A stretch of 31,880 nucleotides of DNA. Source: a virus. Every line of letters starts with the position of its first letter. Position 1 is the stretch's first letter. Made by a program: the position numbers and the translations under genes. Shown here one piece after another: positions 840 through 27,788 of this stretch. The stretch lies in IMG/VR virus record IMGVR_UViG_3300035034_000438, positions 1-31,880 of that record. One strand, written 5' to 3'. The notes beneath the pieces are model-generated. The model was not told where the DNA came from. It did no database searches and saw nothing but the letters and a program-made list of their open reading frames with translations.

Positions 840-3800
840 TTACTTCAACCACTCCGAATCCACGTCTCCATCGACGGCGTAGTCAGCCCAGCTGAGTACA
901 GACTTAGGTACTTCAGGGAACACTGAGCTGAAGGGCACTGAGCGCTCTAGCGCGGAGCCCATGCTCGTTCTACCCCGTGCCGCAGTTACCAAGCGCTCTA
1001 CGTGGTCTGCAGTGGGGCCTAGTACGTCAGAGATCACTGAGCCGCCGTATTGACGCGATTCAATCAAGTCTGGCACCATGCCAAACATGCCGTAGGCTCC
1101 TGAGCGGCGTACACCGTCGTTCAGGTAGTCTCTAAGGCCCCAATCTTCTTTCTGGTCGTCGCCTCCGGCACCGTCTGTCAGGGCATCCCGCAGCAGGTCC
1201 ATGGCGATCATCATCACGACATAACTCGACATGTTCAAGAGTGGGGCGTAGTTACCCTCAGCAGCTTGGGTGTACGCTCTACGCAGCACCTGCTCGTGGT
1301 ACGTGAAGTAAAATCCCTTCAAGTGGCTGAACAGCATCCAGTTAGGGTCGTTCATCCACGTAGGGCGCTGCGTGGGCGCTGGGCGCAGCACAGACTCATT
1401 GACCATACGGTTCAGCGCTTGTTTGACTCGATCGTCTCTAGCCACTTCGTTTAAGTTAGCGTCGGGCGAGTTCAACTGCGCTGCTCTGGCGTCACCTACG
1501 GTTCTTTTAGATCCTAACAGGGCATCTACTTCAGCTGCACTAAGCAGCTTGATATTGTCGCCTTCAGTTACTACGTCTTCAGCGACTAGATCCAGTTGTT
1601 CTAACTCGGCAATGGCCTTAGCATCTCCGGCCAGCGCTTTCTTAGCTTGTTTGTAAATGAACCTGCGCCCTGTGACCACCGCAGATAGGCGCAGTGTTCT
1701 TGTCAAGTGTTCCATACCGTTGTACTTAAAGAACAAGTCATTAACGCGCCGAGCACTACCTGACATCATGTTACCGCCGTAGAACTGGCCTAGAATCTCA
1801 AAAGTGGACGAGCGCTCGACAATACCTAGCTCTTCGCCTAGTTTACGTAGTTCAGACAGATCCTCGCCTTTAATACTCCGCTTAGTCTCTCGTATTCCCG
1901 CAGCATACCCTTCAAACGCAGCAGCCATATCCCCAGTTCTAAAAAATAGTCCGGCAGCGTCAGCCACATTAGTCATCATGGCCAGCGGAAGGATAATTAT
2001 GTTCTGGTAAACAACAATAGCGGCCATGGCTTGTCTGAACCGTACCGGGTCGTTAGTAATGGCACGGTCGATATAATATCCCTTGTCATTCTCGACCTTC
2101 TTAACTCGCCCGGTTGAGTTATTTAATTTTTTAGATTTGAGCGCAAGCTCAGCAGTTCTAAATGGCTGACCGTCCGTGTCGTACATAGGCTTCATTAACG
2201 TGGACTCTAAGGGCTTCATGACCATCTTCCAAAATGGCGATACTTCAAGCCCAACTTTACCTACGGCAGAGTCAGCCATGTTGTCCATCAGCTTTAGAGT
2301 CTGAGCATTAGCGCCAAGCGCTGCGGCACGGCGTTTTAAGTTGACTAAGCGTCTACCGTCGTTGCCGAAGGTCCGTGCGTATTCTGCACGTTTAACCAGT
2401 TGATCAATGTAAGTGTACATCGTGGTGCCTACATTGGAGCTGAACATGCTGCCGAGCAGTTCTTTAGACGCGGCATCACCATGATCTTCTAAGAATCCAA
2501 GCTCACGTTTAAACATCGCTTGGACTACGGGCGCAGTTTCGGCGTCCGTAGGATTCACAGTATCTACTAGCCCGTTGTTTTCAGAAATTATCCCGTTGAC
2601 AACATGGGTAATGAACTTACGACGCACGCTGTCGTCGAAGTTTTCTACTACGAAGCCTTTTTCTCTGGCTAGGTTCTTCCAGCCGTTTTCAAACTCAGGC
2701 TTCATCCAGTCTTCAATAATATCGTCAGCCCGTTGCGCGGTATTAATCGGATCGAAGACCCAGGGTACGTAATTCTGGCCACGGTTTCCTATAGGTACTC
2801 CGGCGCTTCGAGCGTAGTTCAACAGCCCACGCATGAGTTTACGAGTGTCGTTACGGGCTTTGATTACGGCAGGGTCTTTAGATTTAATACTTTTTAGCAT
2901 CCAGTCTTTGTACGCGACTTGCTGCTCAGTGTCTAAGTTCGCTACGATATTGTGGAACTGGCCGTGGTACTTAGCTGCGCTACGCATTTTACGTGCGAAC
3001 ATCGCTTCGCCCCAGCCTTTACTGTCCACGCTGGTGTAGATTAAGTTGGATAAGCGCATCACTGTGGCGTTGCCACTAAACCGGGCTTGCATAGCTTCGC
3101 CTATCCAGACATTCAGCATCGGAGTGGTGCGTTCCAAAAACAACGTCACGTTCTGCGCGGCTGCTTGCAGCGTGTTAGGGTTCGCGGTTACTGTTTCGAG
3201 CACGAACTGCTTGTTGGGATTAATCAGCAAGTCACTACCGGCGCTACGCAGGAGTTTCATGTACTTAGGAGTAAACACGTCATTTTTATAATCTGCTGCA
3301 AGCGAAGCGCGTTCTTTTGCAGACAGGGTATTAAATGCTTCGTTACCACTTATCTCGCCTTTAGATTTAATCACGTCAGCTAACGCCGCGACTAAGTCTG
3401 ACGACAAGGCGTACATACCAGCACGTAGATTAGAGCCCTTAGCAGCTTCGTTTGCTAATGATGCACGGGTATCTAAATCGCCGTCGTAGATGGCATTGAG
3501 TATCTGTTCTGCTTGGTCTGATTTACGCACCTTACCCATGAGCCTATGAGCGGCAGCACTAAGAGTGGCAACTGCCTTACTACTTTTAGGCTCCAACTCA
3601 ATTAGCCCGGCACGGTGCATCGCAATACCTAGACCGATAAGGTCAAAGTCAGATCTTAAGAACTGTTCGGGCATAATCCCAGCGTCACGTAAGAACTTGA
3701 TCATTGTTGATCGCACACCTTCGTCCAGCATGGCTGAAGCTATTACGTTACGTTCTTGCGGAGTGAGCTTAGCAATTGCGAAACTACGCATAGCCTCGAA

Positions 3801-6800
3801 GCCTTCGATAGTGAAGGGGCTTCGTATGGCTCTTTCAGCGTCAGCGATCTCCTCAATAGTGGCATCGTCGGGCAACGATCCGTCGATCGACGCAAGTGCC
3901 GGTCCCCGGTCCTTAGCGTCTCGGAATGCCTCTACGTCGTTATTTATGTAATACGACAACTGAGCATCCATTAATGGATTAGGATTGTAGCTATTGCTAT
4001 CTTTCAGCCCAGTAATTATTTTATCCATCTCACGCTGCATCACCGCTTCGCGGTCAGCTATAAGCATAGATTCATTAATCCAAATTATCACTTTACCGTC
4101 TTTAACGAAGTGCAGCGCAGCTACGTACTGCAGGTCTGCTTCGCTAGTAAAGTTATCATCGGACTTATCTAAGAGCACAGTGGCTTCGCTCCAGCGGATT
4201 ACTCGCACGGAGTTATCAAGCCCTGCGTCACTTAGTTGCTGAGTCAGCCTAGAACCTTCAATGGCTAGTTGCTTAGGCGACGCCATTTCGTTCTGGACAG
4301 AATCAATGTCCGAGGGATCAGTTACCCACGGGGGCACTTGCCCCGTTACCGGGGCATAGTAGTACGTGTCATCCGTGCCTGGGAAGTCGGCTTTATTCTG
4401 CCCAACCTCCTCCGCTGTGTCTTGTTGGAGTGTGGCCTTCCGCATCTCTTCGAGCATGATGCCCCAGCGCTGCTCGCTGGTCGTGGCTGAAGCCTTAGCT
4501 TCTCGGACGCGCTGCTGCTTGAGCTGGGCGTACAGAGCCATCAGTTGAGTGGCCGCTTGGTAACGGCGGGTCAAGTTAGTCCGTATCAGAGCGGCGTCGC
4601 CGTCTTCAATGGCCTGTTCCAGCTCCGCCTGCAGCCGCGTCATTTCAGCGCGTAGTCGGTTAGCCTCTACTTCCTGTTCCTCAAGTGCGTCGAGCCGCGC
4701 CTGTACCTGCTCAGTCGTAGGTTTATCCCGGCGCTTAAACGCTGGGTCTTTTCGGGCGCTGTGCTGCAGCTTACGGTCGGCTAACAGCTGCCTCAGAACA
4801 GGTGTGTCACTACTGTCGAGAGGTCGAGAAGCCAGCATCCTACCGTACAGTCTTTTCAATACACTTGCTACGGACTCAAATACTCTAAGCGCGAGGGAGT
4901 TATTCGTCGGTTTAAATCCATCTTCGACAATCATGCGGGCGACGTTATCTGCGAACCACTCACGCGGGTCGAGTACATACTCCTCCGACACTCGTTCCTC
5001 TAGCGGTTTGGACTCGGTGGATGAGGCTAACGTGCCTCGTTTCTCACTGAGGATCTTATCCAGCTCCACTCGTCGATCCGGCGCGGCATCTAAACGTGCC
5101 TCCATCTCGGATCGCCACTGCCCATACTCTGCGTTAAGTGCGGCCACTTCCTCCTTAGAGGCATTGAGTAGAGTCTCTACTTCGAGTGCGTGGCCTAGTT
5201 CATGAACTAAAGTGTGGATGAGTTTTATCTTAGGCGAGCCATCTTTATTGAACATGGCAGCGTTTAGGACAATGACATTATCTTGTGCGTAGTACAGCCC
5301 GTTCGTTCCGGGCGGTAGGTCCGAAGAAATCTCTATGGCAGGCGCTGGCATCCCCATGTTTGAGGTGAAGTCACTGACTACGTCCTCCACCCACGTTACG
5401 GCGCGTTCCACTGCCTCGGCATCTAAATTCCAGCCCGCTGCCGAAGTCATGCGTGAGCGCTTCAGACTGTTAGGCTGTGAGCTCTGCTTGAGGAAATTAT
5501 CCATACGCTTCTTAATGAAGGCAGCGCGTTTTTTAACGTCAAAGAACTCACTAAACTCGCCTTGACCTAGCGGCTCATTAGCGAACTCGTCCAAGAAATC
5601 AGTTTCAGCGCCCGGCGCAAGTACGTCTCTCGGAGCCAGCACCTTAGCATCAGGGCCTGGCTTCCAAACAGCCAGCTGCCCGCGGGTTTCTTTAATGTAG
5701 CCTCGGCTCTCTAAGAAGTCTGCGGCGGCGGCTTCGCCCGTGTTGTACGTGGTGATCCTAGCGTCGGTAACAACAGTAGCGCCAGCGGCTAACGCCGCCT
5801 GTAGTTCTGACTGCACAGAGTCACTGAACCCTACCGAGCCGCCCCGGTTCCCCTCCACGGACAAGAACACGGCGTCGTTTGGGCCGTAGCTGCCTGTGTT
5901 GGCGCGATCGCCGTAGTAGGCTTTGTACAGGTTAGTCGAAGACCGGCGCGAGCCGTGTCCTACGAACAAGGACGTGCCGCCGTTACGTTCTGCGATGTCT
6001 GCGGCCAGCTGTGCTTTAGCTTGGTCCTTGGCTGTAGTTTCGGGGCTACCGATGTCTGGGAATATCGGGACTACGGTTCTTAGCTCCGGCGCGGTCAGTG
6101 CTGCACGTTCTACTCGTATGGCCCGCAGCCTGCTGTCTGGCCAGCCTGTTAGTGCTTGGGCCAGCTGCTCCGGCGTTTTAAACTTCTCGTCACTCAGGCG
6201 CTCGATACGGCGCTCGAAGTCTTTCTGTATCGTTACAGGCGACTTCCCATCCATAGCGCGTCTCAGCGCGTCACGCTGGTTCTCCATGCTGGTGATCCGC
6301 GTACGGACAAGCCTAAGTGCTGAGCGCAGGCTGTTAGCCCAGTCTTGTTTCTCAGCCTTTGAAGCCACGGCTAAATCATCGAGCAGCGCCTGCTCTTTTA
6401 CTTTAAGCGGCCCCAGCGCTGTCAACATCCTGATATCTGAAGTCAGAGCCTGCACGGAGCGCTGGCTACCGGCTGAGCGCGTAGCGCCACCTAGAGACGT
6501 AGCGGCTCCGCCACTCGATCTAAATACTGTGGCGTTCTCGTTCAGCACAGACGCGATGGACGGCACGGCAGCGATCTCAGCGTCGATGGCTGTAGTGTCC
6601 CCACCCTGCGCTGCTATCTCGTTGCGCTCATACACGAGCCCTACCAGCGCGTCTTGGCCCTCTGGCGCGTAGCCGTTACGTACGAACAGTTCTGACAGCC
6701 CGGCTGCTACAGCCCGGCCTACGTTGTTTATGGATACACCGCCCGAACCACTGCCACTTTCAAACGCTTCGCCCCGCGCTTCGCGCTCACTGTCCGTGCC

Positions 6801-9347
6801 ACCTCTGGACTCGCGATCGACGCGGTTAATCATGGTCTGGGTCAACGCCACTAAATCAACGGCAGCGCGTCGGCCTTGTGGGTCAGCTAAGATAATTTTA
6901 GACGGGTCACTTTCAGCGCGTTTTACCGCGGCTGGACTTGTGGTTACGATCTTGCGCTGGCTAAGTTCCCCCGCCGTCAGCCGCTGCGGATCTTGGCCCG
7001 TAGCAGCGCCGGGTACACGATCTTCAACCACAGTATCGAACTGGTTCAAGAATGCTACGGCAGCGTTGTAACTGTCCACTAGAGGAGCGTCAGGGTTAAT
7101 GTTCAGTGCCCGCTCACCACTGACGGCGCGTTCTGGGTTGGCGTCAGACATACGCTGCGCCTCTTCGATAACCTGCTGCTGAATGGCGCTGTTAGTAACG
7201 GCTGTATTTGAATCGTCTAGTCCTGCCTGTAGCCGCAACATACGCACAGTGGCGTCGCCCGCAGGCACCGCTCTGAACTGGCCGCTGGAGCCAGTCTGAG
7301 TGTTGAGTTTGTCCGCTAGTACCGTCGCTCTGGTCGAAGGGGTATCGTCACGTATGCCTGGAGTCCTCGGTGATAAGAATACTGAGCCCAGCGTAGGACT
7401 AGCCTTCAGGCTCCCCATGATATCGGTATCAGTGATTACACCTGCGTCTGCTCTGGCGAATGGGGACAGAGCAGCGATGATCGACGGCTCATTGACTTCC
7501 AGAGCGTCGCCGGTAGGTGAAGTCAGTGCGTCTTCCCCGCCCTCGTCCAGCGCATCGAAGCCGGTGTTTTCTTGGTCCGAGTCCATCTCATTACGCAGCT
7601 CCTGCATACGGCGCTCGCGCAGCCGCAGCTCCTGCTCCAGAGATACTAATTCCTCGGATTCAGGATCTAGTCCATCACGTTCAGCTGCGGCTCGGCGCTC
7701 TTCGAGCAGCGTGTACAGCCGGTCGATCTGGAAATCTTCAGTCTGTGCGGATACTTCACGCGCCACTTTGAGCAGCTCACTCGATGAGATGTCGATGTTG
7801 TAGCGGTCAGCCAAGTAGTCAGCTGCGGCTTCGGCGCGTGTGGTCTCCACTCCTTCGACTTCTATTACTTCGTCGCCGTTGCCATTAGGGTCGAGCAGCG
7901 TACGTAGTGCCGTGCCGACCTCCAGTGCTACATTGAAGTCGTCACTGCCGATTAATTCTGCAGCTAAGTCATCTGCGGTAATGCCTTGCGCCGCTCCTAG
8001 TGACTCCATCACTATATTGCCTAGTGTTTGAGTCTGGCCTTGGTCGAACCGCTCGGACGGCGAGCGCGGGTCTGGCTCTCCGCTTTCAGCGCGTAGGCGC
8101 TTAGCTGTTTCTAACCGGCGCTGATTTAAGCGGTCTTTGACTTTCGATACTGCGCCGCCCTCATTATCGAATTTAATGGACGTCACGCCACCTAGAGCGC
8201 CACCGACGATAGCACCAGCGATGCCTTCCTCGATGTACTGGGCGATGGCCTCGTCCGAGAACAGCTCCACGTTATCGTTGACCATCTTGTGCGCGGCTTT
8301 CATAGCGATGCCCTGAGCCACTTCGGTACTGGCCTCCAGCACTGCCTGGCTTGCGCCACCGGCTACGACGTTAAACACGTTGCTGGACTTCAACTCGCGC
8401 ATAATGCCGCTACGGGCTACGCCTCCAAGCCCCATTCGCTCGAATACGGTCAAGATAGGCAGTGCCTCGAAACCTGCTGTAGCAAGTGCGCCACCTCCGG
8501 CGGCAATGGCTCGGTCTCGTACGCTCCGGCCACCCTCTTCATCTAGCAGGATATCAACTGCCTCGCCACTTTGTAGCCCGAAACCAGCGGCGTACGAGCC
8601 AGTGGCCATGCCGCGCCGCATCGAGCGGTTGAGCAGGGCTTTCTTAGCGGAGCCCATGGCGGCTTTGGTCGGCGCAACGATGGCGCGGCCAGCCGTTTTA
8701 TCCCTAGCTTTCTTCAGCGCGTAGCGCCTAGCTGCTGTGGATGTAGTCCTGTTGAGAGCGACTGCGCCAGCGCCTCGCACTGCTACGCCGCCGATGCCAG
8801 CTGATGCGATCATGGAGGCCATGACAGGAGCCTGGCTACCTAGTATTCCTGCTACGTAGGAGCCTACGCCCGCCCGCCCTGCTGCTACGTCTGCTGCGGT
8901 GGTCTGTGGCCCCAGTGCTGCGCCTCGCGCTTGGATCTGCGCGGCTCGCTCTGCGTTGCCAATAGCGCCTTCCTCATTACCGGCGACGCCTTGGATAATA
9001 GAAGTCACGGCAGGTATGGTGGCCCGCATCGTGTTCATGCCTTGGTCTAAGCCCCGCATAAAGGAGTTCTTACCCCGGCGTATAGAAGCCAGCGCCGTAT
9101 CGTTCTGGTCAACAAGGCCTGACAACGACATCGTGTTGGGCCTGTCGCCCGTGATTGATAAGTCTCTGAGCTGGCTACGCGGCGCTGGAGGCGCTGGAGG
9201 AGTCAGCAGCTCGCTCTTCACGTCTTCAATGATCGAAGCAGCCTCGGTGGGCTGCTTAGATTTCAGAGTAATCGGCTCTTCGGCGCGGGGTAAGTCACTC
9301 GGCTTATCTTCGTCGAGTGTACCTCTCAGGTTAATTTTATCGACCAC
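840..9347 (-). CDS. Giant polyvalent virion protein with zinc-metalloprotease motif (probable ejected internal protein)
   Basis: This is a 2835-residue protein. I prefer GTG at 9347, because GAGGTG sits six bases upstream; GTG at 9356 would add three residues and lies inside that Shine-Dalgarno. The order seen is: a charged N-terminus; Gly/Ala-rich hydrophobic helices at about 159-199 and 279-390; a coiled coil at about 540-592; and a glycine-rich segment starting FVGHGSR at about 1128, of uncertain family. A gluzincin-like HELGHA follows (His1382, Glu1383, His1386), with a candidate third ligand Glu1463 in REWFAD. Then comes a coiled coil at about 1540-1625, and hydrophobic helices at about 2439-2469 and 2697-2722. 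The C-terminal part, with FFKYNGMEHLTRTLR and LKGFYFTYHEQVLRR, resembles the conserved end of phage large polyvalent proteins. Its place at the end of the structural operon and its membrane-seeking ends suggest ejection with the DNA. No lysozyme, transglycosylase or RNA polymerase motif was found. Function is inferred. Confidence 0.85.
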   Translation of the reverse strand: MVDKINLRGTLDEDKPSDLPRAEEPITLKSKQPTEAASIIEDVKSELLTPPAPPAPRSQLRDLSITGDRPNTMSLSGLVDQNDTALASIRRGKNSFMRGLDQGMNTMRATIPAVTSIIQGVAGNEEGAIGNAERAAQIQARGAALGPQTTAADVAAGRAGVGSYVAGILGSQAPVMASMIASAGIGGVAVRGAGAVALNRTTSTAARRYALKKARDKTAGRAIVAPTKAAMGSAKKALLNRSMRRGMATGSYAAGFGLQSGEAVDILLDEEGGRSVRDRAIAAGGGALATAGFEALPILTVFERMGLGGVARSGIMRELKSSNVFNVVAGGASQAVLEASTEVAQGIAMKAAHKMVNDNVELFSDEAIAQYIEEGIAGAIVGGALGGVTSIKFDNEGGAVSKVKDRLNQRRLETAKRLRAESGEPDPRSPSERFDQGQTQTLGNIVMESLGAAQGITADDLAAELIGSDDFNVALEVGTALRTLLDPNGNGDEVIEVEGVETTRAEAAADYLADRYNIDISSSELLKVAREVSAQTEDFQIDRLYTLLEERRAAAERDGLDPESEELVSLEQELRLRERRMQELRNEMDSDQENTGFDALDEGGEDALTSPTGDALEVNEPSIIAALSPFARADAGVITDTDIMGSLKASPTLGSVFLSPRTPGIRDDTPSTRATVLADKLNTQTGSSGQFRAVPAGDATVRMLRLQAGLDDSNTAVTNSAIQQQVIEEAQRMSDANPERAVSGERALNINPDAPLVDSYNAAVAFLNQFDTVVEDRVPGAATGQDPQRLTAGELSQRKIVTTSPAAVKRAESDPSKIILADPQGRRAAVDLVALTQTMINRVDRESRGGTDSEREARGEAFESGSGSGGVSINNVGRAVAAGLSELFVRNGYAPEGQDALVGLVYERNEIAAQGGDTTAIDAEIAAVPSIASVLNENATVFRSSGGAATSLGGATRSAGSQRSVQALTSDIRMLTALGPLKVKEQALLDDLAVASKAEKQDWANSLRSALRLVRTRITSMENQRDALRRAMDGKSPVTIQKDFERRIERLSDEKFKTPEQLAQALTGWPDSRLRAIRVERAALTAPELRTVVPIFPDIGSPETTAKDQAKAQLAADIAERNGGTSLFVGHGSRRSSTNLYKAYYGDRANTGSYGPNDAVFLSVEGNRGGSVGFSDSVQSELQAALAAGATVVTDARITTYNTGEAAAADFLESRGYIKETRGQLAVWKPGPDAKVLAPRDVLAPGAETDFLDEFANEPLGQGEFSEFFDVKKRAAFIKKRMDNFLKQSSQPNSLKRSRMTSAAGWNLDAEAVERAVTWVEDVVSDFTSNMGMPAPAIEISSDLPPGTNGLYYAQDNVIVLNAAMFNKDGSPKIKLIHTLVHELGHALEVETLLNASKEEVAALNAEYGQWRSEMEARLDAAPDRRVELDKILSEKRGTLASSTESKPLEERVSEEYVLDPREWFADNVARMIVEDGFKPTNNSLALRVFESVASVLKRLYGRMLASRPLDSSDTPVLRQLLADRKLQHSARKDPAFKRRDKPTTEQVQARLDALEEQEVEANRLRAEMTRLQAELEQAIEDGDAALIRTNLTRRYQAATQLMALYAQLKQQRVREAKASATTSEQRWGIMLEEMRKATLQQDTAEEVGQNKADFPGTDDTYYYAPVTGQVPPWVTDPSDIDSVQNEMASPKQLAIEGSRLTQQLSDAGLDNSVRVIRWSEATVLLDKSDDNFTSEADLQYVAALHFVKDGKVIIWINESMLIADREAVMQREMDKIITGLKDSNSYNPNPLMDAQLSYYINNDVEAFRDAKDRGPALASIDGSLPDDATIEEIADAERAIRSPFTIEGFEAMRSFAIAKLTPQERNVIASAMLDEGVRSTMIKFLRDAGIMPEQFLRSDFDLIGLGIAMHRAGLIELEPKSSKAVATLSAAAHRLMGKVRKSDQAEQILNAIYDGDLDTRASLANEAAKGSNLRAGMYALSSDLVAALADVIKSKGEISGNEAFNTLSAKERASLAADYKNDVFTPKYMKLLRSAGSDLLINPNKQFVLETVTANPNTLQAAAQNVTLFLERTTPMLNVWIGEAMQARFSGNATVMRLSNLIYTSVDSKGWGEAMFARKMRSAAKYHGQFHNIVANLDTEQQVAYKDWMLKSIKSKDPAVIKARNDTRKLMRGLLNYARSAGVPIGNRGQNYVPWVFDPINTAQRADDIIEDWMKPEFENGWKNLAREKGFVVENFDDSVRRKFITHVVNGIISENNGLVDTVNPTDAETAPVVQAMFKRELGFLEDHGDAASKELLGSMFSSNVGTTMYTYIDQLVKRAEYARTFGNDGRRLVNLKRRAAALGANAQTLKLMDNMADSAVGKVGLEVSPFWKMVMKPLESTLMKPMYDTDGQPFRTAELALKSKKLNNSTGRVKKVENDKGYYIDRAITNDPVRFRQAMAAIVVYQNIIILPLAMMTNVADAAGLFFRTGDMAAAFEGYAAGIRETKRSIKGEDLSELRKLGEELGIVERSSTFEILGQFYGGNMMSGSARRVNDLFFKYNGMEHLTRTLRLSAVVTGRRFIYKQAKKALAGDAKAIAELEQLDLVAEDVVTEGDNIKLLSAAEVDALLGSKRTVGDARAAQLNSPDANLNEVARDDRVKQALNRMVNESVLRPAPTQRPTWMNDPNWMLFSHLKGFYFTYHEQVLRRAYTQAAEGNYAPLLNMSSYVVMMIAMDLLRDALTDGAGGDDQKEDWGLRDYLNDGVRRSGAYGMFGMVPDLIESRQYGGSVISDVLGPTADHVERLVTAARGRTSMGSALERSVPFSSVFPEVPKSVLSWADYAVDGDVDSEWLK

Positions 9348-10761
9348 CGCCGCCACCTCGCGTTAAGGACTGAGCATCTGCCTCTTCATTCTGTTCTCTT
9401 AGCTGGCGGAGCTTAGCCCCCCTTATGCTTGGCCCACTCTCTGATTTAGCCCTCTCACCTGCCGCAGCAATCCTATCACGTAGATTTGCAGCTATCCGCT
9501 GGGCATCAGCTTCGGCCTGCTCGGCTTCGGCCTGCTGGTCGAGAACCTGCTGTTCCTGTTGGGTAAACGATACAGTAGACTCGCCTTCCTTGATACCAAA
9601 CTGCTCACGCTGCTCCGCCGTCAGCTCATTCCCGGCAGCTACGAAGTCCATCACTTCCTGTTTCTGCGCGGCGCTCTTGGCAAAGCCTTGGCGGGCTCTA
9701 CCAGCGATGTTCTCTAGCTGCGCCCGGTACTGTTCTGGGATACGACCAGTGTCTACTTGACCGCCTGATATATCCTCAAACTTTCTCTGGCCTGGATTCA
9801 GCGCCATACGCTCGACTAACGCCAGCATCGGTTCAGGACCTTGGTTATTAATACCTTCCTGCCCAAATATAGTATCGAAGCCTTCAACGTTACCGGATAA
9901 TGCAGTCAATAGGCCTATGTCCTCAGAAGTAGCGTCGAATGGAATAGCACCGGAAGCAAAGGCTCTGGCAGTAGCGGCCACTGCTACTGGATTAAGTCCG
10001 GGTCCTTCTGGATCTCCAGATAAATCATTCGCTACTGTATTGCCAAATTCTACCGCCCCTGCATTAAATGCTTGGGAGCCCGGCTGATTAGCTGGCCCGT
10101 TTCGGAGTGAGTCAGCTATAGCCTCTTGACGGTCTGTTCCGGCTCTGAAGCGGTCGATCTGGTTCCGCGCTTCGTCACGGGTCGTGGTATTGATCGTATT
10201 CCCGGCTTCGGGAGTAACAGCGCCACTTGCCACGTCTCTTGGTAAATTACGTAGCGTGGTAGCTCGGTCTTGTAACTGGTTGCCAGCAATCCTAGCGCTG
10301 TCGCGTTCTGGGTCAGCGATGATCTTCTGATCGACGCCCCGCTGGATCGAAGCATTGTCGAATGTAGGTACGCCGTCCGCGTTAGTGCTTGAGGCCAAGC
10401 CTGCATTTGGAACTGGTTGGGTAGTATCTGGAGCCTGACCAGAGCCTAGGCGCAAGCGCTCCCCGAAAGAGTTGAACGGGAGCGCTTTAGCATTCCCACC
10501 TAAGTCGATCGCGCCACCAGCATTTCTTCTGGCTTCACGGGCTTGACGTAAGCCCCCTTCCATCCCCGGACTGATCGTGGAATCAGGTCTTATATTCATC
10601 AGCTCCTCTTCTTTTTCAGGGCTGATAGGAGTCGTAGACCGTAGCCCACCCATAAGCTCCTTACGGGCGGCTTGCCGCGTAGGGTTAGGCTTACGCAGCT
10701 GCTGCGATGCGACTGGCGCGGGGTCCCGTAAACCGGGCGGTTGGTTTCTGCGATCTACCAT
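9337..10761 (-). CDS. Putative internal virion protein, largely disordered (474 residues)
   Basis: No catalytic motif is recognised. The protein is rich in Asn, Gln, Gly, Pro and charged residues and looks largely disordered through about residue 240. A helical part containing QREQFGIKEGES and a Glu/Ala/Gln coiled-coil-like segment at about 400-440 follow, and the protein ends in a glycine run (RGGGGGR). The ATG start has GAGG about seven bases upstream. It begins 3 bases after the 121-residue gene and ends inside the start region of the giant gene, so translation is probably coupled. By position it is a good candidate for a minor virion or ejection protein acting with the giant protein, comparable in role, not in sequence, to internal proteins of other podoviruses. 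Structural role is inferred from context only. Confidence 0.7.
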   Translation of the reverse strand: MVDRRNQPPGLRDPAPVASQQLRKPNPTRQAARKELMGGLRSTTPISPEKEEELMNIRPDSTISPGMEGGLRQAREARRNAGGAIDLGGNAKALPFNSFGERLRLGSGQAPDTTQPVPNAGLASSTNADGVPTFDNASIQRGVDQKIIADPERDSARIAGNQLQDRATTLRNLPRDVASGAVTPEAGNTINTTTRDEARNQIDRFRAGTDRQEAIADSLRNGPANQPGSQAFNAGAVEFGNTVANDLSGDPEGPGLNPVAVAATARAFASGAIPFDATSEDIGLLTALSGNVEGFDTIFGQEGINNQGPEPMLALVERMALNPGQRKFEDISGGQVDTGRIPEQYRAQLENIAGRARQGFAKSAAQKQEVMDFVAAGNELTAEQREQFGIKEGESTVSFTQQEQQVLDQQAEAEQAEADAQRIAANLRDRIAAAGERAKSESGPSIRGAKLRQLREQNEEADAQSLTRGGGGGR

Positions 10762-15137: not shown

Positions 15138-15186
15138 AGTCTTATCCTCTAAAAAACACCTAACTCATTGTAATCGAAATTTGCAC

Positions 15187-15237
15187 TTAAGCTAAGAATT
15201 TTACGCGGTCGTAGAAGGGTACTTTTATATTAGCCAT
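15187..15237 (-). pseudogene. Possible remnant of a duplicated fibre gene start (16 codons)
   Basis: A frame of 16 codons encodes MANIKVPFYDRVKFLA and then stops. It resembles the start of the adjacent fibre protein (DRVKF against DRIKF) and the usual N-terminus of this fibre family. AGGA lies ten bases upstream of its ATG, so it could still be translated. It sits in the 125-bp gap between two tail genes. It could be the stub of a deleted or recombined fibre gene, or a real micropeptide; the similarity is short, so confidence is low. Confidence 0.38.
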
Positions 15238-15262
15238 GGTATTGAGTCCTAGTGTGTCGGTA

Positions 15263-20481: not shown

Positions 20482-20506
20482 AATAAGACTTCCTCAATGG
20501 GTTTTG

Positions 20507-20533
20507 AAAAGGGGGGGCATGAGCCCCCTCTTT
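20507..20533 (-). terminator. Terminator-like GC hairpin, possibly bidirectional
   Basis: A 6-bp perfect G/C stem (20513-20518 with 20523-20528, loop ATGA) extends to about 11 bp with one mismatch through flanking A and T residues. On the minus strand it is followed by TTTT; on the plus strand it is followed by TCTTTGTTT. It lies between the decoration-protein gene and the 168-residue gene. It probably reduces rather than stops late transcription, since adaptor and tail genes lie beyond it with no obvious promoter. Confidence 0.6.
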
Positions 20534-20535
20534 GT

Positions 20536-20933: not shown

Positions 20934-22076
20934 TTAGAGTGCTGTGTCAATTACGAATGAGCCAAAGTCTTCGAGTAAGCCTGAGTCTACGCCTTTGAAC
21001 TGCGGACGTAGGAGGCCACACATCTTACCTGCTGAAATGCCAGGCTTGTTCTCAAAGTCAAACTCTTTCTCGACCCATTTTGGTCGTCCAATATCGGCTT
21101 TAGCAAGCGCCTGAGCACCAGCTACGATAATGCGCTGTCCATCCACTGCGCCACCAGCGCCCCACTTACTGCCTGCGGGAGCGTTACGGTTGTTAAACGT
21201 CATCTTGTGCGGGTAGATGGCAATGCCGTCTAGCCAGATAACATCAGTGCCCTTGAACAGCGGGTTATCTGCTGAACGGGGTAGCGCATCCTTGTAAGCC
21301 GCTTTGAAATCAGGGTCCATCTTCAGCGCTTTGATACCGTCCGGGGTCATGAACATGTTGAAGTGTTCGATGCCGCCTTTAGAGTAAATTGGCTGCAGGT
21401 AGGAGTTCTCGGCTGCGGTCTTAGCGGCCAACACCATTTCATACGTAGGTGTATCGGCTGCTACGATGTTTGCGTTACCGAAACCAGCTTGCCCTGCGCG
21501 GAGTAGCCCGTTGGTGGCATCCCACTGGAATTGGCGGTTAGCTGTAAGAGGCTTAGCAGCATCAGCAGCGAACTTCAGCAACTGTAACTGAGAGCTCAAT
21601 GGGTTCTGGGCGGTGGTGCCTCGTAAAGCGCCTCGCGTGGTGTAAGCATATGAAATGCCTGACAAGTGCAAGAACGCCATTTGATCCCAGCGGTTAGCCA
21701 GCCAGTAAGCTAGTTTGTCCCGTGACTGCAAGCGGAAATTTACTACGCTACGCTGGTTAGCCATCGCGCCTTCGTGAAGGACAGCGTGGCGGAGTTGATC
21801 AACGTCGATCACTTGGTCGGAACTGGTCATCGCCTCTTCGTTACCTTCCAGAGTACGGTCGCCAGCTACGCCATCACCTTCGAGATCATGGATAAGTGTA
21901 ATTACCGCCCGAGCACCTTTTTCGGTCTGCTTCAGCTCAGTAATGCGCTGGATCATGTTAGTAGCTTCGGTGCCCTCGAACTTAGCAGTGAAAGACCGAT
22001 CGCGGGCTTGCTTCCACACGCCCATTGACCAAATTGTCTTTTCTTCTTCCGTCTGATTAGCAAAATTAGTAAACAT
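20934..22076 (-). CDS. Major capsid protein, N4-gp56 family (380 residues)
   Basis: The sequence fits the N4-gp56 family of HK97-fold major capsid proteins. It shows an N-terminal arm, the GDRTLEGNEEAM signature, VDQLRHAV, RDKLAYWLANRWDQMAFLHLSG, and a late segment FNMFMTPDGIKALKMD. Length is usual for the family. AGAGG lies nine bases before ATG. The 247-bp leader between the scaffold stop and this start carries three 29-bp hairpin repeats and one strong hairpin, which is unusual in an operon otherwise packed tightly. The protein would be assembled with the scaffold and portal into the procapsid, and the gene is followed directly by a probable decoration protein. Confidence 0.9.
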   Translation of the reverse strand: MFTNFANQTEEEKTIWSMGVWKQARDRSFTAKFEGTEATNMIQRITELKQTEKGARAVITLIHDLEGDGVAGDRTLEGNEEAMTSSDQVIDVDQLRHAVLHEGAMANQRSVVNFRLQSRDKLAYWLANRWDQMAFLHLSGISYAYTTRGALRGTTAQNPLSSQLQLLKFAADAAKPLTANRQFQWDATNGLLRAGQAGFGNANIVAADTPTYEMVLAAKTAAENSYLQPIYSKGGIEHFNMFMTPDGIKALKMDPDFKAAYKDALPRSADNPLFKGTDVIWLDGIAIYPHKMTFNNRNAPAGSKWGAGGAVDGQRIIVAGAQALAKADIGRPKWVEKEFDFENKPGISAGKMCGLLRPQFKGVDSGLLEDFGSFVIDTAL

Positions 22077-22140
22077 TTTGGAATACCTCTTAAAAATAGA
22101 TGATTTATTGGTTTCCCGTTCTTCGCTAACGGTGAGCGTT

Positions 22141-22275
22141 TATCATGTATTTTTTTCGAGACTGCTCTCGCTCCAAACTGTCGCGTCTGGCGGTCGGTAT
22201 CAGTGTTTAATGAGACTGCTCTCAAACCGTTTATCGCAACGATGGGCGGAATCAGTATTTATTGAGACTGCTCTC
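22141..22275 (-). repeat. Three spaced 29-bp repeats with hairpin cores in the capsid-gene leader
   Basis: Copies lie at 22141-22169, 22195-22223 and 22247-22275 (spacing 54 and 52 bases). Each has the core GAGAGCAGTCTC on the minus strand, which pairs as GAGA/TCTC around GCAG. Copies two and three match at 26 of 29 positions; the first is more diverged outside the core. The closing pair is C-G in the first copy and T-A in the others, a paired change that supports hairpin folding. They sit 65-199 bases before the capsid ATG. Function is unknown: RNA processing, mRNA stability or protein binding are possible. Confidence 0.8.
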
Positions 22276-22278
22276 AGA

Positions 22279-22313
22279 TTTATAGGCGGAGTATACCGCA
22301 CTCCGCCTATAAA
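22279..22313 (-). promoter_or_regulatory. Perfect 14-bp hairpin after the scaffold gene
   Basis: Arms 22279-22292 and 22300-22313 are perfectly complementary around a 7-base loop. The minus-strand continuation is AATCTGAG with no T run, so it is not a normal intrinsic terminator. It begins 11 bases after the scaffold stop codon. It may act as an RNA processing site or mRNA stabiliser separating scaffold and capsid messages. The structure itself is certain; the role is inferred. Confidence 0.7.
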
Positions 22314-22323
22314 ATGCAAACGG

Positions 22324-23373
22324 CTAAACTGAGGGTAAGTGGTCGCCGCGATATTTGGACTTCAACTTCTCGTCCATTTTCTCGTAGTCCTCCATCGACA
22401 TGTTGAGAATATCTACGTCATCTTCTGTATCCAATGCCGCTCTCTTATTATCCACCCTAGCCGGTTGGGAAGTAGCGACCTTCTTATTACGGGTTGTATT
22501 CGTAGTGCGCTTCTTACCAGACAGCGATGGTTTTTCGTCATCAGCTTCTAAGTCCGGCATATCCAACTGAAATTTGACGCGAGTGTATTCAAACGCTTTG
22601 AGCATGGCTTCTACTCTGCCCCGCCCAGCTTTCATGAAGTCCTGGGATAGTTCCAGCGTCTCGCGCACTAATGGCTCGTTGAAGTTGTCCGAAGATGAAT
22701 CGAACTGGGTGTAGTCCGCTTCGATCCGGTCTACCAAACTGTCAAATTTTGTATCCTCAATAGCTTGGTCTCGCGCAGTCCTAGTAGCCTCGCTGATACG
22801 GATCTCAGTCAGATCGCGGTTTAGCTTGGACTCTTCGGTCCGCAGCTTGGAAATTTTTTCTGAGTCAGCATCAACTAAGGCGCCTGTAAGCTCAGTGCTT
22901 AATGCGTCTAAGCGGTCGTTGATGGTTTTGACCTGGTCTGAAGTATCTGCCGGTGCCGCACTGTCGATTTTGCCGAAGCGCCGCTCGTACTCAGCTACCT
23001 TCTTCACCGCGTCTTTCTTCTGCTTAGTTATCTCATTAATGCGGGATTGAGGTATGCGGATCGAGTTGGCTTTCTTGGCTGGTTTGGCGTCGTCATCCGT
23101 GGCGTCGTCATCCGTGGTGTCGTCATCCGTGGTGTCGTCATCCGTGGTGTCGTCGTCCGTGGTGTCGTCATCCGTGGTGTCGTCATCCGTGGTGTCGTCA
23201 TCCGTGGTGTCGTCATCCGTGGTGTCGTCGTCCGTGGTGTCGTCATCCGTGGTGTCGTCGTCCGTGGTGTCGTCGTCCGTAGGTAGGAAGTCGCCTCTTA
23301 ACTTAGGGTCGTCTACGAAATTCTCCAGCGCTTCAGCGTCTGCGTTCCCTACTTCGATGCCATCTACTTTCAT
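22324..23373 (-). CDS. Scaffold protein with an Asp/Thr repeat tract (349 residues)
   Basis: This is called scaffold by position between portal and major capsid protein and by composition: highly charged, almost wholly helical, no catalytic motif. ATG at 23373 has GGAG eight bases upstream and is preferred; GTG at 23379, which overlaps the portal stop, is too close to that site. Residues about 31-95 are thirteen copies of a TDDD(T/A) pentapeptide. They are followed by a basic linker, a coiled coil (about 115-210), and a C-terminal region with a basic patch (KKRTTNTTRNKK) and a final helix EDYEKMDEKLKSKYRGD. Basic C-terminal helices that bind capsid protein are known in other phage scaffolds. 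The acidic repeat at the N-terminus is an unusual addition. Confidence 0.8.
   Translation of the reverse strand: MKVDGIEVGNADAEALENFVDDPKLRGDFLPTDDDTTDDDTTDDDTTDDDTTDDDTTDDDTTDDDTTDDDTTDDDTTDDDTTDDDTTDDDATDDDAKPAKKANSIRIPQSRINEITKQKKDAVKKVAEYERRFGKIDSAAPADTSDQVKTINDRLDALSTELTGALVDADSEKISKLRTEESKLNRDLTEIRISEATRTARDQAIEDTKFDSLVDRIEADYTQFDSSSDNFNEPLVRETLELSQDFMKAGRGRVEAMLKAFEYTRVKFQLDMPDLEADDEKPSLSGKKRTTNTTRNKKVATSQPARVDNKRAALDTEDDVDILNMSMEDYEKMDEKLKSKYRGDHLPSV
23086..23280. repeat. Minisatellite: thirteen 15-bp units inside the scaffold gene
   Basis: The units are exact copies of GG(T/C)GTCGTC(A/G)TCCGT on the plus strand. Only two positions vary: C in the first two units at base 3 (Thr to Ala) and A or G at base 10, a synonymous Asp wobble (pattern AAAAGAAAAGAGG). 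Read on the minus strand each unit encodes TDDDT or TDDDA. The low divergence points to recent expansion by slippage or unequal recombination, always in frame because the unit is 15 bp. Confidence 0.97.
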
Positions 23374-23375
23374 AA

Positions 23376-25493
23376 TCACTGCTCCGTGGTTTGTTCAGGT
23401 TGTGCGCCTTCTTGCTGCGCGGGTACGGCGGCGCTCTCTTCCTGCCTAGCGTCGTCTAGTAAAGTCTTCATTTCGTCCGCCCTCTGCGCTCTGGATCTTA
23501 TATCTACGACAGCAGCGTCATTGGCTTCCTTAACATCCAACATGCGGGCTCTCAGCATGAGATCCATCTCCTCTCGGACGGATAAATTCCCGCCTTCAAT
23601 CTCGCTCATCACTTTGCGGGCTCTGGCTTCGGACAATGTGGCCTGGGCGATGCGGTTACGTACATCGGCCTGCTTCAGCTCCATTTCCAACTTCGCCATC
23701 TCCTGCTGGGCCTGCCGCTCCTCCTCAGTCGGAGTATCCGTACCTGAAGCCTTACGAAGCTCTTCAGCCAGTTCCTCTTTCCGGCTAAACGAGCTGTGCT
23801 CCACAAACATGTACGTAGGGACGGTAATGCCTAGTTTCTGAAGTTCGATCAGTTCGTTGAACTGCTGATTGTCGAATGTATCCCGGACGGCTGTGGAAGT
23901 GATCACTACGTTGTAATCACCTTCGGTAATGTCATTCACTACCTCGCCGGTTTCCTCGTCCACTTGGTTCAATGTAATGTGTTCTGTTTGAGCATTGATG
24001 CCGCGAGACGTTATTGATATAACGCGCTCGTCATCATAAAACCGCTTTATCAGCTTTAATATCCGCGCAGCCAGTAACTCATGTGTCAGAGACAAGTTAG
24101 TCAGGTGGGGCGTAAATGCTGTGAGGGATGCTTGTCTGCGAGCGCCAATGGCTTTACCCGCGACATCAGCTCTCGCAACTCCACGGGTTTCGTCCTGGAT
24201 GCCTGAGATAGAACCCAGATCTTCATCCGCTTTGTTAGATATGCGATCCAGCCCGGTGGGGATCTTAACTGGCTCGATCCTAGTAATGTCGTCGGAGCTG
24301 TCATTGTACTCAATGACCAAGCCAGTCATTGAACCGCGCTGCTCCAGATCGGAGGTGTTCATGTTAGTTAGAGAGCCGGTTTTTACCTTCCAACCACTGT
24401 TGGACGTGCCGTTCACGATATGCAGCTCTTGCGACCGCAACTTGTTGTAATTGCGCTGCGGGTCGATCAAGTCTTCTACTGCGCCCGATGTCTTACCTCT
24501 GAGAAAGAACGGGAAGAACGGTACGATCGTAAAATGGTCGTAAGGGCTTAACTTGTCGTGGAGTAATGCGCTGCCAGTGGATACGGTCCAGCGAATTACT
24601 TTAGCGTCCTTCTTCACCACTTTGAGTTTAGGATTCTCTGCCAGCTTTTCCTCGACGGTAGCAGGGTCCCAATCCATCGGAATACGGTAAGACTCTCCAG
24701 TGCTCCCATTAATTAGGAAGTCCACTTTCTCAATCTGCTTGTACTGGCGTTCTATAATCAGGTAATTCTTTCTAGTCGGGTCTTCTAAGTCTTCCGCCCC
24801 GTCGCTGGCAAACTCAGCGTCGGTCCCGCCGAAACTGCCGTCCTCGTCCAGCTTAGTATCGTTGTCAGAATGGACTGTCGTGCCGTGCGCTATCACAGCG
24901 TCCACATACTTCTTGCCATAGCGTCGCTCGATGTCCATTAACGTCTGTCTGGACACGATCATCACCTCGTTCCAAGTATCAGGATCATACTCGTCTGCGT
25001 CGGGGTCTGGAATAACTGAACGGGGGTTCGGAGTTGTTATGGAAACTTTGCCCATGTGGTTATCGTCGAAAGCTATCCGCACGTCGTAATACGCCCGCGA
25101 CGTTACAATCCCTTCCAGGAATAAGTTCGAGTCTAGGTGCTCTAGTTTCTGGTCGTTACTTACGTCTATGTAGACCTTGTTGAGCAACGTCGCAGTATCA
25201 GATGAGCCATTAGCCGAAGGTACGAATTTCACTTCCGTACGGTTTTGCTGGTATTCACCCAGCATCGTCTGGACTATAGGCTTGATCTTATTAATTGTGA
25301 GGGCGGGGCGCTTGGCAGTTTTTAATGCCTTAATGTCTTTCTCGTCCCACTGCTCAGAGAAAAGGAATTTGTTACATAGGTTGGCCTTGGCGACGAATCT
25401 ATCGTGGCCTTTTTTTCTAGCGTACACCAGCCGCGCATGATTGTTCTCAGCTGCGGTGGAAGCTGAAACTGGTTTTTTAGGTGCGTCTTTCAT
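23376..25493 (-). CDS. Portal protein, P22-like (705 residues)
   Basis: Length, gene position and motifs fit the P22-type portal family. There is an N-terminal segment with WDEKDIKALKTAKRPALTINKIKPIV and LGEYQQNRTEVKFVP, and the stem-side pattern NPRSVIPDPDADEYDPDTWNEVMIV. An IRWTVSTGSALL region and the YNKLRSQELHIVNG helix follow, and then a long C-terminal helical region (about 610-690) rich in Glu, Arg and Gln. The ATG overlaps the TerL stop as ATGA. It forms the dodecameric ring through which TerL packages DNA and to which the adaptor binds. A P22-like portal paired with an N4-gp56-type capsid is a combination seen in other podovirus-like phages. Confidence 0.88.
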   Translation of the reverse strand: MKDAPKKPVSASTAAENNHARLVYARKKGHDRFVAKANLCNKFLFSEQWDEKDIKALKTAKRPALTINKIKPIVQTMLGEYQQNRTEVKFVPSANGSSDTATLLNKVYIDVSNDQKLEHLDSNLFLEGIVTSRAYYDVRIAFDDNHMGKVSITTPNPRSVIPDPDADEYDPDTWNEVMIVSRQTLMDIERRYGKKYVDAVIAHGTTVHSDNDTKLDEDGSFGGTDAEFASDGAEDLEDPTRKNYLIIERQYKQIEKVDFLINGSTGESYRIPMDWDPATVEEKLAENPKLKVVKKDAKVIRWTVSTGSALLHDKLSPYDHFTIVPFFPFFLRGKTSGAVEDLIDPQRNYNKLRSQELHIVNGTSNSGWKVKTGSLTNMNTSDLEQRGSMTGLVIEYNDSSDDITRIEPVKIPTGLDRISNKADEDLGSISGIQDETRGVARADVAGKAIGARRQASLTAFTPHLTNLSLTHELLAARILKLIKRFYDDERVISITSRGINAQTEHITLNQVDEETGEVVNDITEGDYNVVITSTAVRDTFDNQQFNELIELQKLGITVPTYMFVEHSSFSRKEELAEELRKASGTDTPTEEERQAQQEMAKLEMELKQADVRNRIAQATLSEARARKVMSEIEGGNLSVREEMDLMLRARMLDVKEANDAAVVDIRSRAQRADEMKTLLDDARQEESAAVPAQQEGAQPEQTTEQ

Positions 25494-27313
25494 TGTGACA
25501 TATACCCTAAGTCAGCGCCGGAGCCCTGGTTTCTGTAGTATTCCTCCAGCATTTGCTCGGTTGACTTACCACTGCTGGGGGCGGAGTAGGTTTTTATAGT
25601 TGGCCTATTATGTACCATACGCACCAACCATGCTAGAGCATCCACTATATCATCATTCACGCCGGAATCAAACCGCAGCAGTTCCTCCTTGGCCTTGAGC
25701 ATCCACGGCTGGTCTTTAGGAAACCACACTCTGTGGTTGTTCATCCAGCCCTGCAGCGGCGTAGCTCTTACGCGCTTATCGTTGATGGGTTTTAGGATGT
25801 CGCTGAATAGTGGTGTAGTGTTCTTTTTTTTGAACGCGGCTTTCAGGCGTTGCTCAATGGCCAGCCAGATCTGCCCATGCTCAATTCCCAGTGCAGCGGC
25901 GTTTGATTTGTACTTCATGTACATGTTGACGATGGCTTGGAGCTGATCTTTGTCTCGTACGCGATTCCTGAACATGTCAAGGATATACAACTCGTTCACC
26001 CCGTCTCTAGGTATCAGGGCTCCAGCTACGCCTACGGTATAGTCGTTGTTCCTGCGTAGGCCGATCGCAAGATCCCAAGCGAAAAACACAGGGTATTGGT
26101 GAAGCTGGGGGACGTTATTGTAGTACATAAAGTCCTCTTCCCTGAAATACTCCCCGGACGCCGGGATAGGGTTCTGCTGGAACAAGGCGCTCCATTGGTT
26201 ATCCGGCATATTGACTTTTTTACGCAAGAGGAATTGTCGGGAGTACCGAGCTGGGTGCAGCGCATCTCCTGTCTTACGTACCAGAATCCTATTTTCGTAA
26301 GGCTCGTCGAAGAAATCGAGCGTCGTCTTATCTATGTATTCGTCACTTTCTGCGATAGCGGGGAACGATACTACTTCCCAGTTCTGCAGGTACTCTTCTG
26401 CGATCCCGTCTTCCCGGTTCTCCTTTTCCAATCTCAGCTGCCAGCCGGACAAGTCGTCGTCATTCCAGCGTGTCTGGACTACGATCACCCCGCCTTGTGG
26501 TGCCAGTCTATTCTCTGCAGTCGTGGTGTACCAGTTCTTTACAGTTTCCCGGATAGTAGGTGACTGAGCGTCCTCATAATCCTTGATGGGGTCGTCGATA
26601 ATGAATACGTTTGCTCCAAAACCTGAGATACCAGTGCCTACGCCAGCGCACTTCAAACCGCCGCGCTTAGTCGTCATCCACTCTTCGGCGCTGGTGCTCG
26701 TCTTATCTAAATTCGTTTCAGGAAAAACAGCCTTGTACTCTGCGCTGTCTATTCTTTGGCGGTTAGCCTTCGAGAACCTGATAGGTAGGCCGATGGTATG
26801 GGAGGCCATGATGATCTCCCACTTCGGCTCTTTACCCAGTATCCAAGAGGGGAAATTATTGGAAACGATCTCGGACTTTCCGTGCCGAGGTGGAACAAAT
26901 ATCATGAGCCGTGGCTGCTTGCCTGCTTTAACGTCTTCATAAAACTTCTCTAGCTTGGCAGCGAATACTTTATGCACCCACCCCACTTTATAGTCCGGCA
27001 TGAACCTCTGTATGAATGGGATTAGGTGCCGTCGCGAAAGCTCGCGCTGCGCCATTTCTTTAGCCGCAACATCTTCTTTTTTTAGTCGCCTGACTTCACT
27101 GAATGCGGCTGCTTTGGGTTTTGGCTTGTAGGCACTGGCTGGAGGCTGCTTTACTTGCTGACGCTTCTTTTTATGTTTAGCTAGTCGCTCTTCTAATTTC
27201 CCTGACTCCTCAGCTATTAGGCATTTGCGGCAAGTTTTATCAACTAGGCTACCTAGCGTCTTATTAGTTACACTACTTCCACACTTAGCGCATGGGAAAG
27301 ACCGGCTAGACAT
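25490..27313 (-). CDS. terL: Terminase large subunit with N-terminal zinc-ribbon-like extension (607 residues)
   Basis: ATPase: Walker A PPRHGKS at residues 141-147 (Lys146), Walker B VFIIDDP at 236-242, and the coupling motif TRWNDDDLSG at about 281-290. Nuclease: Asp414 in AWDLA, Glu478 in LGIEHG, and Asp554, Asp555 and Asp558 in NDDIVDALAW. Before the usual start of such proteins (RHLIPFIQRF at about 93) there is an extension with two CxxC pairs (PCAKCG and TCRKC) and a lysine/arginine-rich linker. ATG at 27313 is chosen because it has GGAG ten bases upstream and overlaps the TerS stop by 8 bases; a start at 27340 has no well-spaced ribosome site. It packages DNA with TerS at the portal. 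Confidence 0.92.
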   Translation of the reverse strand: MSSRSFPCAKCGSSVTNKTLGSLVDKTCRKCLIAEESGKLEERLAKHKKKRQQVKQPPASAYKPKPKAAAFSEVRRLKKEDVAAKEMAQRELSRRHLIPFIQRFMPDYKVGWVHKVFAAKLEKFYEDVKAGKQPRLMIFVPPRHGKSEIVSNNFPSWILGKEPKWEIIMASHTIGLPIRFSKANRQRIDSAEYKAVFPETNLDKTSTSAEEWMTTKRGGLKCAGVGTGISGFGANVFIIDDPIKDYEDAQSPTIRETVKNWYTTTAENRLAPQGGVIVVQTRWNDDDLSGWQLRLEKENREDGIAEEYLQNWEVVSFPAIAESDEYIDKTTLDFFDEPYENRILVRKTGDALHPARYSRQFLLRKKVNMPDNQWSALFQQNPIPASGEYFREEDFMYYNNVPQLHQYPVFFAWDLAIGLRRNNDYTVGVAGALIPRDGVNELYILDMFRNRVRDKDQLQAIVNMYMKYKSNAAALGIEHGQIWLAIEQRLKAAFKKKNTTPLFSDILKPINDKRVRATPLQGWMNNHRVWFPKDQPWMLKAKEELLRFDSGVNDDIVDALAWLVRMVHNRPTIKTYSAPSSGKSTEQMLEEYYRNQGSGADLGYMSQ

Positions 27314-27788
27314 CAGTGCCGTCACTCCGCCTAAAGTCATCCTCAGAGAGCTCGATCGTACTGCCTGACCCCGCTATACGCGCAACGTCCGCCGTATTCA
27401 TGGACTTCATGGTGTTGATAAGGTCGATGGCTTCTTCCGGCAAGTCATGGATGACTCGTTCAGGTGCGTTCAAGCCTTGTAGCTTGGCCAAAGATTCCCA
27501 GCCTCTAATTTCTGTAGCTGGCTCCCCCAGCATCTTAGCCCGCCCGATAGCGTCGAGAATACCCTCCACCACATTCTCTCTGCGGATCTCAAAACGCTTT
27601 TCTTGGTGTTGGCGGACTTTGCTTAGGTATCTCACGACCCGCTCGTCTTTCAGTATTCCCCTGACTGACGCAGTTGACAACCCTGCGTAAGCAGCGGCTT
27701 CCGCAGTGGTCATTCCCATAGACCCGATAGCCTCTACGACTTTTAGCCTGCGAGTGTGCGCGGATTCGTTATTAGCTAACTGGTTCAT
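27306..27788 (-). CDS. terS: Terminase small subunit (160 residues)
   Basis: A helix-turn-helix candidate lies near the N-terminus (TTAEAAAYAGLSTASVRGIL, residues about 27-46). It is followed by the helical segment ENVVEGILDAIGRAKMLGEP and then WESLAKLQGLNAPE, a pattern shared with many small terminase subunits. The C-terminus is acidic (ELSEDDFRR). It sits directly before TerL, with an 8-base overlap, and its ATG overlaps the stop of the lipoprotein spanin as ATGA. It would recognise the packaging site and regulate TerL. The packaging site itself could not be identified in this window. Confidence 0.85.
   Translation of the reverse strand: MNQLANNESAHTRRLKVVEAIGSMGMTTAEAAAYAGLSTASVRGILKDERVVRYLSKVRQHQEKRFEIRRENVVEGILDAIGRAKMLGEPATEIRGWESLAKLQGLNAPERVIHDLPEEAIDLINTMKSMNTADVARIAGSGSTIELSEDDFRRSDGTDV

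Follow-up and report, generated by a model that had tools for sequence, protein, structure and literature searches.

The major capsid protein (MCP) gene of the DNA stretch analysed here (the window, 31,880 bases of the virus record IMGVR_UViG_3300035034_000438) is preceded by a leader RNA that is conserved, strand-specific and capsid-specific, a conclusion that is well supported and of which we have very little doubt. The conserved pairings of this leader suggest, at the level of sequence, that it governs the timing or the strength of capsid-gene translation, and translational control through the Shine-Dalgarno site (SD) would be its best-supported role, with chances slightly above even. The best explanation as a whole, with a probability of about 0.5, would be a translational-control leader RNA in which hairpins with a CGAYA loop bind a factor that shifts the balance between a second hairpin (HP2) and the SD.

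The MCP gene belongs to a minus-strand operon with the order terminase large subunit, portal, 351-aa protein and MCP:

25490-27340, minus strand: terminase large subunit gene, operon member
23376-25493, minus strand: portal gene, operon member
22324-23379, minus strand: gene of the 351-aa protein, in scaffold position directly upstream of the MCP leader
20934-22076, minus strand: MCP gene, phrog_334 major head protein

A PHROG search with the 351-aa protein of 22324-23379 gave no match, and the MCP was about 51% identical to those of the nearest isolated phages, KPP25, R18 and CRPAP1904. The initial annotation had placed 247 bases before the capsid gene in an operon otherwise free of gaps. The 247 bases, lying between 20934-22076 and 22324-23379, were exact, but gaps of 54 (20482-20535) and 125 bases (15138-15262) also occur in the operon. 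Downstream of MCP, a strong GC hairpin with T-rich sequence behind it stands between two genes (20510-20529) and may be a terminator within the late operon. A plus-strand gene at 42-611, opposite in orientation to the late operon, matched phrog_757 (DNA methyltransferase). The PHROG matches of the 2838-aa virion protein (840-9356) were virion structural only and C-terminal (phrog_30152); neither a Pfam family nor a solved structure (PDB) was matched by its sequence, and an N4-type virion RNA polymerase was looked for in it without a match.

The elements of the leader are the following:

22077-22323, minus strand: whole MCP leader according to gene coordinates, 5' end at the 22323 side, start codon at 22074-22076
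22314-22319, minus strand: weak -35-like hexamer TTGCAT, from the sequence, 18 nt from the -10
22290-22295, minus strand: -10-like hexamer TATACT, from the sequence, with the same hexamer and spacing in leaders L005 and L006
22279-22313, minus strand: P0, perfect 14-nt inverted repeat with a 7-nt loop, overlapping the -10, from an inverted-repeat search
22263-22276, minus strand: HP2 copy 1, T-GAGA[GCAG]TCTC-A, from the sequence and an exact repeat search
22228-22241, minus strand: CGATA-loop hairpin, CGTT[GCGATA]AACG, from the loop survey and covariance model
22211-22224, minus strand: HP2 copy 2, T-GAGA[GCAG]TCTC-A, from the sequence, repeat search and covariance model
22173-22190, minus strand: CGACA-loop hairpin, CCAGAC[GCGACA]GTTTGG, from the loop survey and covariance model
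22157-22170, minus strand: HP2 copy 3, C-GAGA[GCAG]TCTC-G, from the sequence and an exact repeat search
22142-22154, minus strand: P3 5' strand AAAAATACATGAT, 12/13 complementary to 22092-22104, in the MFE fold
22116-22132, minus strand: HP3, CCGTT[AGCGAAG]AACGG, with a divergent loop, in the MFE fold and aligned to the HP3 of the model
22092-22104, minus strand: P3 3' strand ATCATCTATTTTT, from inverted-repeat complementarity and the MFE fold
22086-22091, minus strand: SD AAGAGG, able to pair with the TCTC of HP2 copy 3

The 252-nt leader RNA folded better than 200 of 200 dinucleotide shuffles (z -4.1). A 29-bp element had been reported in it in three copies, and the exact core GAGAGCAGTCTC is present three times on the minus strand within the 247 bases (plus-strand GAGACTGCTCTC at 22158-22169, 22212-22223 and 22264-22275), spaced by 54 and 52 bases, in agreement with the 52-54 described. 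The repeat proved to be longer than claimed, 33 nt in register, with 88% and 61% identity to the middle copy. A search for further copies of GAGACTGCTCTC elsewhere in the window gave none, also when as many as 2 mismatches were allowed. The outer stem pair is C-G in one copy (22157/22170) but T-A in two, as had been noticed; taken alone, this one difference among three copies is insufficient to show selected RNA hairpins. The initial annotation overlooked a second kind of hairpin, located between or after the three elements (22228-22241, 22173-22190 and 22116-22132). The real repeat unit comprises both hairpin kinds, the GAGAGCAGTCTC copies being one half of a larger module of about 53 nt with the order CGAYA-loop hairpin, short HP2 (GAGA-GCAG-TCTC in the window), A-rich stretch and next CGAYA hairpin. 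The window leader contains three HP2 in total.

MCP homologues were gathered from viral contigs and genome contigs and their leaders were extracted, giving 97 non-redundant leaders. Related phages and prophages whose MCP is about 40-64% identical had leaders with usually one and sometimes two modules. Their shared layout consists of HP1 with a CGAYA loop, the adjoining HP2, a TAAAA-like segment, a linker, HP3 with a CGAYA loop, the SD and the start codon, and it recurs among relatives with differing stems. When the 1024 possible loop pentamers were ranked over the 97 leaders, CGACA (48) was first and CGATA (42) second, the median being 2. The 90 CGAYA hairpins observed, against about 3.5 expected from dinucleotide shuffles, have 61 distinct 5' arms and are 18-fold denser in leaders than in flanking DNA (5.0 and 0.27 per kb, respectively). 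At least one CG[AT]NA hairpin was present in 83/97 leaders and at least two in 61/97. The leader L256 of an Azoarcus prophage (G011:C202:8130-8257) carries two tandem modules at an offset of 54 nt and is thus a precedent for the tandem array of the window. A strong leader with one module belongs to the prophage of Uliginosibacterium gangwonense DSM 18521 (L204/L249). Among more distant MCP relatives (about 30% identity, L011-L023) such a leader is mostly absent, and the leaders of the KPP25-type phage R18 and of phiA008 were not recognised by the covariance model.

The initial annotation had proposed aligning the leader in related phages and looking for covariation of the stem. In a MAFFT alignment of 20 relatives, from which the window was left out, 77.9% of the cells were paired under the three-helix structure (shuffles: 55.9%), and its covariation score was 0.509 against 0.175 in shuffles (0/500) and at most 0.203 for slid structures. 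Shuffles ignore relatedness while the slide control retains it, and the structure, having been chosen on the same sequences, is somewhat favoured in these comparisons. Two-sided changes were found in this alignment at every pair of HP1 and HP3; HP2 was the weakest helix, with such changes at 1/3 pairs. The result was repeated on a 34-sequence alignment fitted to the model, which is biased towards the structure.

A covariance model (R1) trained without the window gave a sole match in its 31.9 kb, at 22173-22244 on the minus strand (24.8 bits, E 2.1e-5). This match spans a complete module, namely the CGATA hairpin, HP2 copy 2 and the CGACA hairpin, and a second model (R2) scored it at 24.6 bits with filters off. 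The module at 22116-22191 reached 13.1 bits with R1 when the search was confined there and 16 bits with R2, which with default filters returned this module only (E 0.11 in 332 kb). The first module of the window (22227-22306) scored 2.7 bits, which leaves model support for modules 2 and 3 only. R1 also detected leaders beyond its training set (L245, L006, L204, L213 and L256).

Two pairings link the module with the start of the gene. The segment following HP2 pairs with the segment preceding the SD, forming the helix P3, and in relatives the HP2 3' arm plus TAAAA is complementary to the SD itself. When each of 39 leaders was compared with swapped partners, the predicted HP2 arm/SD duplex was more stable in the own pairing (mean -7.3 against -6.0 kcal/mol, Z -4.5, 0/20000), as was P3 (-11.0 against -9.7 kcal/mol, Z -3.4, 17/20000). 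The linker against the SD, used as negative control on the same 39 leaders, gave no signal (Z 0.1). For a second negative control, the HP2 arm against the gap, a weak signal was obtained (Z -2.1), so common composition or ancestry may account for part of the pairing signal. A wider own-against-swapped test on the 97 leaders gave 0/20000. Matched variants were also recognised by eye: the SD variants CCTCCGTAA of L246, CCTCGTAAA of L168 and CCTCCTAA of L207 are matched by TTACGGAGG, TTTACGAGG and TTAGGAGG, respectively. In the window TCTCGAAAAAAATACATGAT pairs with ATCATCTATTTTTAAGAGG, and the predicted duplex including P3 has -11.1 kcal/mol, a value as low being reached by 11/5000 shuffles; the 13-nt arms of P3 were also found independently by the inverted-repeat search.

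As the HP2 3' arm co-varies with the SD, HP2 and the SD are competitors for a single strand. In ensemble folding of 33 relatives, whose pairing energies are predictions like the rest, the HP2 3' arm was paired to the SD at a mean probability of 0.44 and the SD was unpaired at 0.22. These relatives are therefore predicted to lean to a closed SD, whereas the window leans to HP2, its more stable alternative, with a mostly open SD. Among close relatives, L165, L174 and L006 showed no HP2 arm/SD pairing in ensemble folding.

The leader would thus be a cis-acting RNA of the capsid mRNA, transcribed from a promoter just upstream. The nascent RNA would fold at least one module (CGAYA hairpin, HP2 and A-rich segment) and then the long-range helix P3, with the SD following closely on its 3' strand. 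P3 could be extended by pairing of the HP2 3' arm with the SD, for which HP2 would have to open. The hairpins with their conserved loops, the co-varying stems, P3, the co-variation of the HP2 arm with the SD, the restriction to the sense strand and the capsid-gene specificity are computational results. We infer that this competition acts as a switch and that a protein binds the CGAYA hairpins beside HP2, shifting the HP2/SD balance in one or the other direction and tuning MCP synthesis; factor binding at these loops is proposed because the loop is conserved on changing stems. Control of translation by a bound protein had been among the roles first suggested and is plausible, the protein itself being still hypothetical. 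The factor would most simply be phage-encoded, with the capsid or scaffold protein as candidates, a guess consistent with the gene specificity of the leader. The first two modules of the window have no P3 or SD partner and would need another job, such as extra binding sites, stability or transcription, which counts against this explanation, as do the mostly open SD predicted for the window and the close relatives L165, L174 and L006, in which the HP2 arm leaves the SD free. Quite tentatively, CGAYA/HP2 units, one to three in tandem, may form a new class of capsid-mRNA control RNA in which binding of capsid or scaffold opens or closes the SD, adjusting synthesis to assembly.

The leader is linked to a single gene. 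In the nearly complete genome G002 the sole strong model match was the MCP leader, and in the nearly complete genome G001 it was the best match, although weak (14.3 bits); nothing similar was found at other intergenic sites of both genomes, by eye or by model. In 12 host genomes (about 45 Mb) every match below 1e-3 falls in an MCP leader. Model matches in two host genomes (L325 and L327) had E about 0.02, lacked a recognised capsid context and were put down to chance. A scan of viral contigs with TGAGAGCAGTCTCA gave over 100 matches, plausibly chance at that collection size, and was not used.

The main rival is an unlikely one, namely that the leader is a nascent-RNA antiterminator placed after a late promoter, acting alone as in HK022 put or with a phage protein as in lambda nut/N, and allowing readthrough of the late operon of about 20 kb. 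Good sigma70-like promoters (at least 10/12) were found upstream of 18/97 leaders against 1.1 expected, and none in the coding control, so that in relatives the leader lies directly downstream of a promoter. At the place of the weaker TTGCAT-18-TATACT of the window, L005 and L006 have TTGACA-18-TATACT. HK022 put suppresses termination through the zinc-binding domain of the RNA polymerase beta' subunit, and putL is also just downstream of its promoter, with two stem-loops in about 70 nt of nascent phage RNA (PMC9378689). The hairpins of the leader differ from those of put in number and kind, and the leader precedes a capsid gene and co-varies with the SD. Modules standing in tandem without an SD partner also agree with antitermination. 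However, antitermination does not predict the co-variation of P3 and of the HP2 arm with the SD, no second copy was found near other promoters in the nearly complete genomes of relatives, and the element keeps to the MCP gene both in prophages and in phages.

That relatives have a separate promoter ahead of the leader also agrees with the earlier idea of raising capsid output over scaffold. In L005, L006, L165 and L174, too, the -10 is overlapped by an inverted repeat, its arms being different, and the arms of P0 in close relatives differ yet remain complementary, around a shared GAGT...ACTC core; P0 is a candidate terminator, processing hairpin or operator.

Somewhat less probable than antitermination is a 5' stabiliser or processing array, in which the hairpins would shield the capsid mRNA from decay, or be cut by a host RNase, and so raise capsid output. 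Capsid protein is required in large amounts, the leader lies where the MCP transcript probably begins, and several of its hairpins stand in series. Any stable hairpin would nevertheless serve this function, yet the CGAYA loop is kept while the stems vary freely, which calls for specific recognition. We give a little less credence still to a host partner, be it an RNA-binding protein or a ribosomal component, that would bind these sites in place of a phage protein. The element occurs in prophages of several bacterial groups and its partner could therefore be a common host factor, but in the 12 host genomes scanned no host gene was strongly matched. CsrA/Rsm binding sites carry GGA in hairpin loops, and the loops of the window are CGAYA and GCAG, with no GGA. 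Finally, a chance repeat or a DNA-level operator or cruciform is strongly disfavoured, as only the inverted repeat at 22279-22313 overlapping the -10 speaks for a DNA role, against the co-varying stems, the long-range SD pairing and a strand asymmetry of 90 sense to 5 antisense CGAYA hairpins in the 97 leaders; of the selected RNA or DNA hairpins first suggested, it is the RNA that the relatives support well.

Returning to translational control, the leader combines conserved structure with compensatory changes in homologous leaders, a fixed link to one gene (5' UTR of MCP only, on the same strand) and a structure that bears on the ribosome binding site through the HP2 arm/SD and P3 co-variation, as is characteristic of cis-regulatory RNAs. 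Its nearest functional parallels would be, by analogy, the autogenous translational operators of T4, a hairpin for gp43 and a pseudoknot for gp32, which are likewise RNA structures that precede a phage gene, close to its ribosome binding site, and that control translation in T4 as is proposed here (PMC3014915). The T4 operators belong to replication proteins and consist of one hairpin or pseudoknot, whereas here a capsid gene is preceded by an array of two hairpin types with the HP2 arm competing for the SD. Mutually exclusive helices, one of them covering the SD, are known from ribosomal-protein leaders and translational riboswitches; the leader shares this principle but belongs to a phage capsid gene and matches no Rfam family. 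In Rfam 15 no family reached the gathering threshold for the window or its relatives, and permissive thresholds gave chance-level matches only. The Mu-gpT-DE RNA motif, a structured RNA candidate, is likewise associated with the gene for the major head protein of a phage; it is set apart from the leader by the Rfam scans without match only. A direct DNA similarity search of the leader against phage records gave no match, and no description of this capsid leader was found in the literature searched, which covered few subscription journals.

To our knowledge, the amount and timing of capsid protein relative to scaffold in tailed phages have mostly been studied at the promoter level. A widespread leader with conserved loops and a strand shared by HP2 and the SD would be a directly testable control at the RNA level. 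It provides an annotation family, marks this clade of capsid genes and may represent a new small RNA-protein pair.

Two other arrangements were observed in the genomes of relatives. About ten tandem copies of the 26-nt unit GCAACTGAAACGTTACGCAACGCTCT occupy an intergenic region of G002 (L152:5140-5800). In L028 (MW202615.1, 3000-4031) an endonuclease-like gene is followed by MCP homology from residue 73 onwards, as if the capsid gene contained an intron or an inserted homing element.
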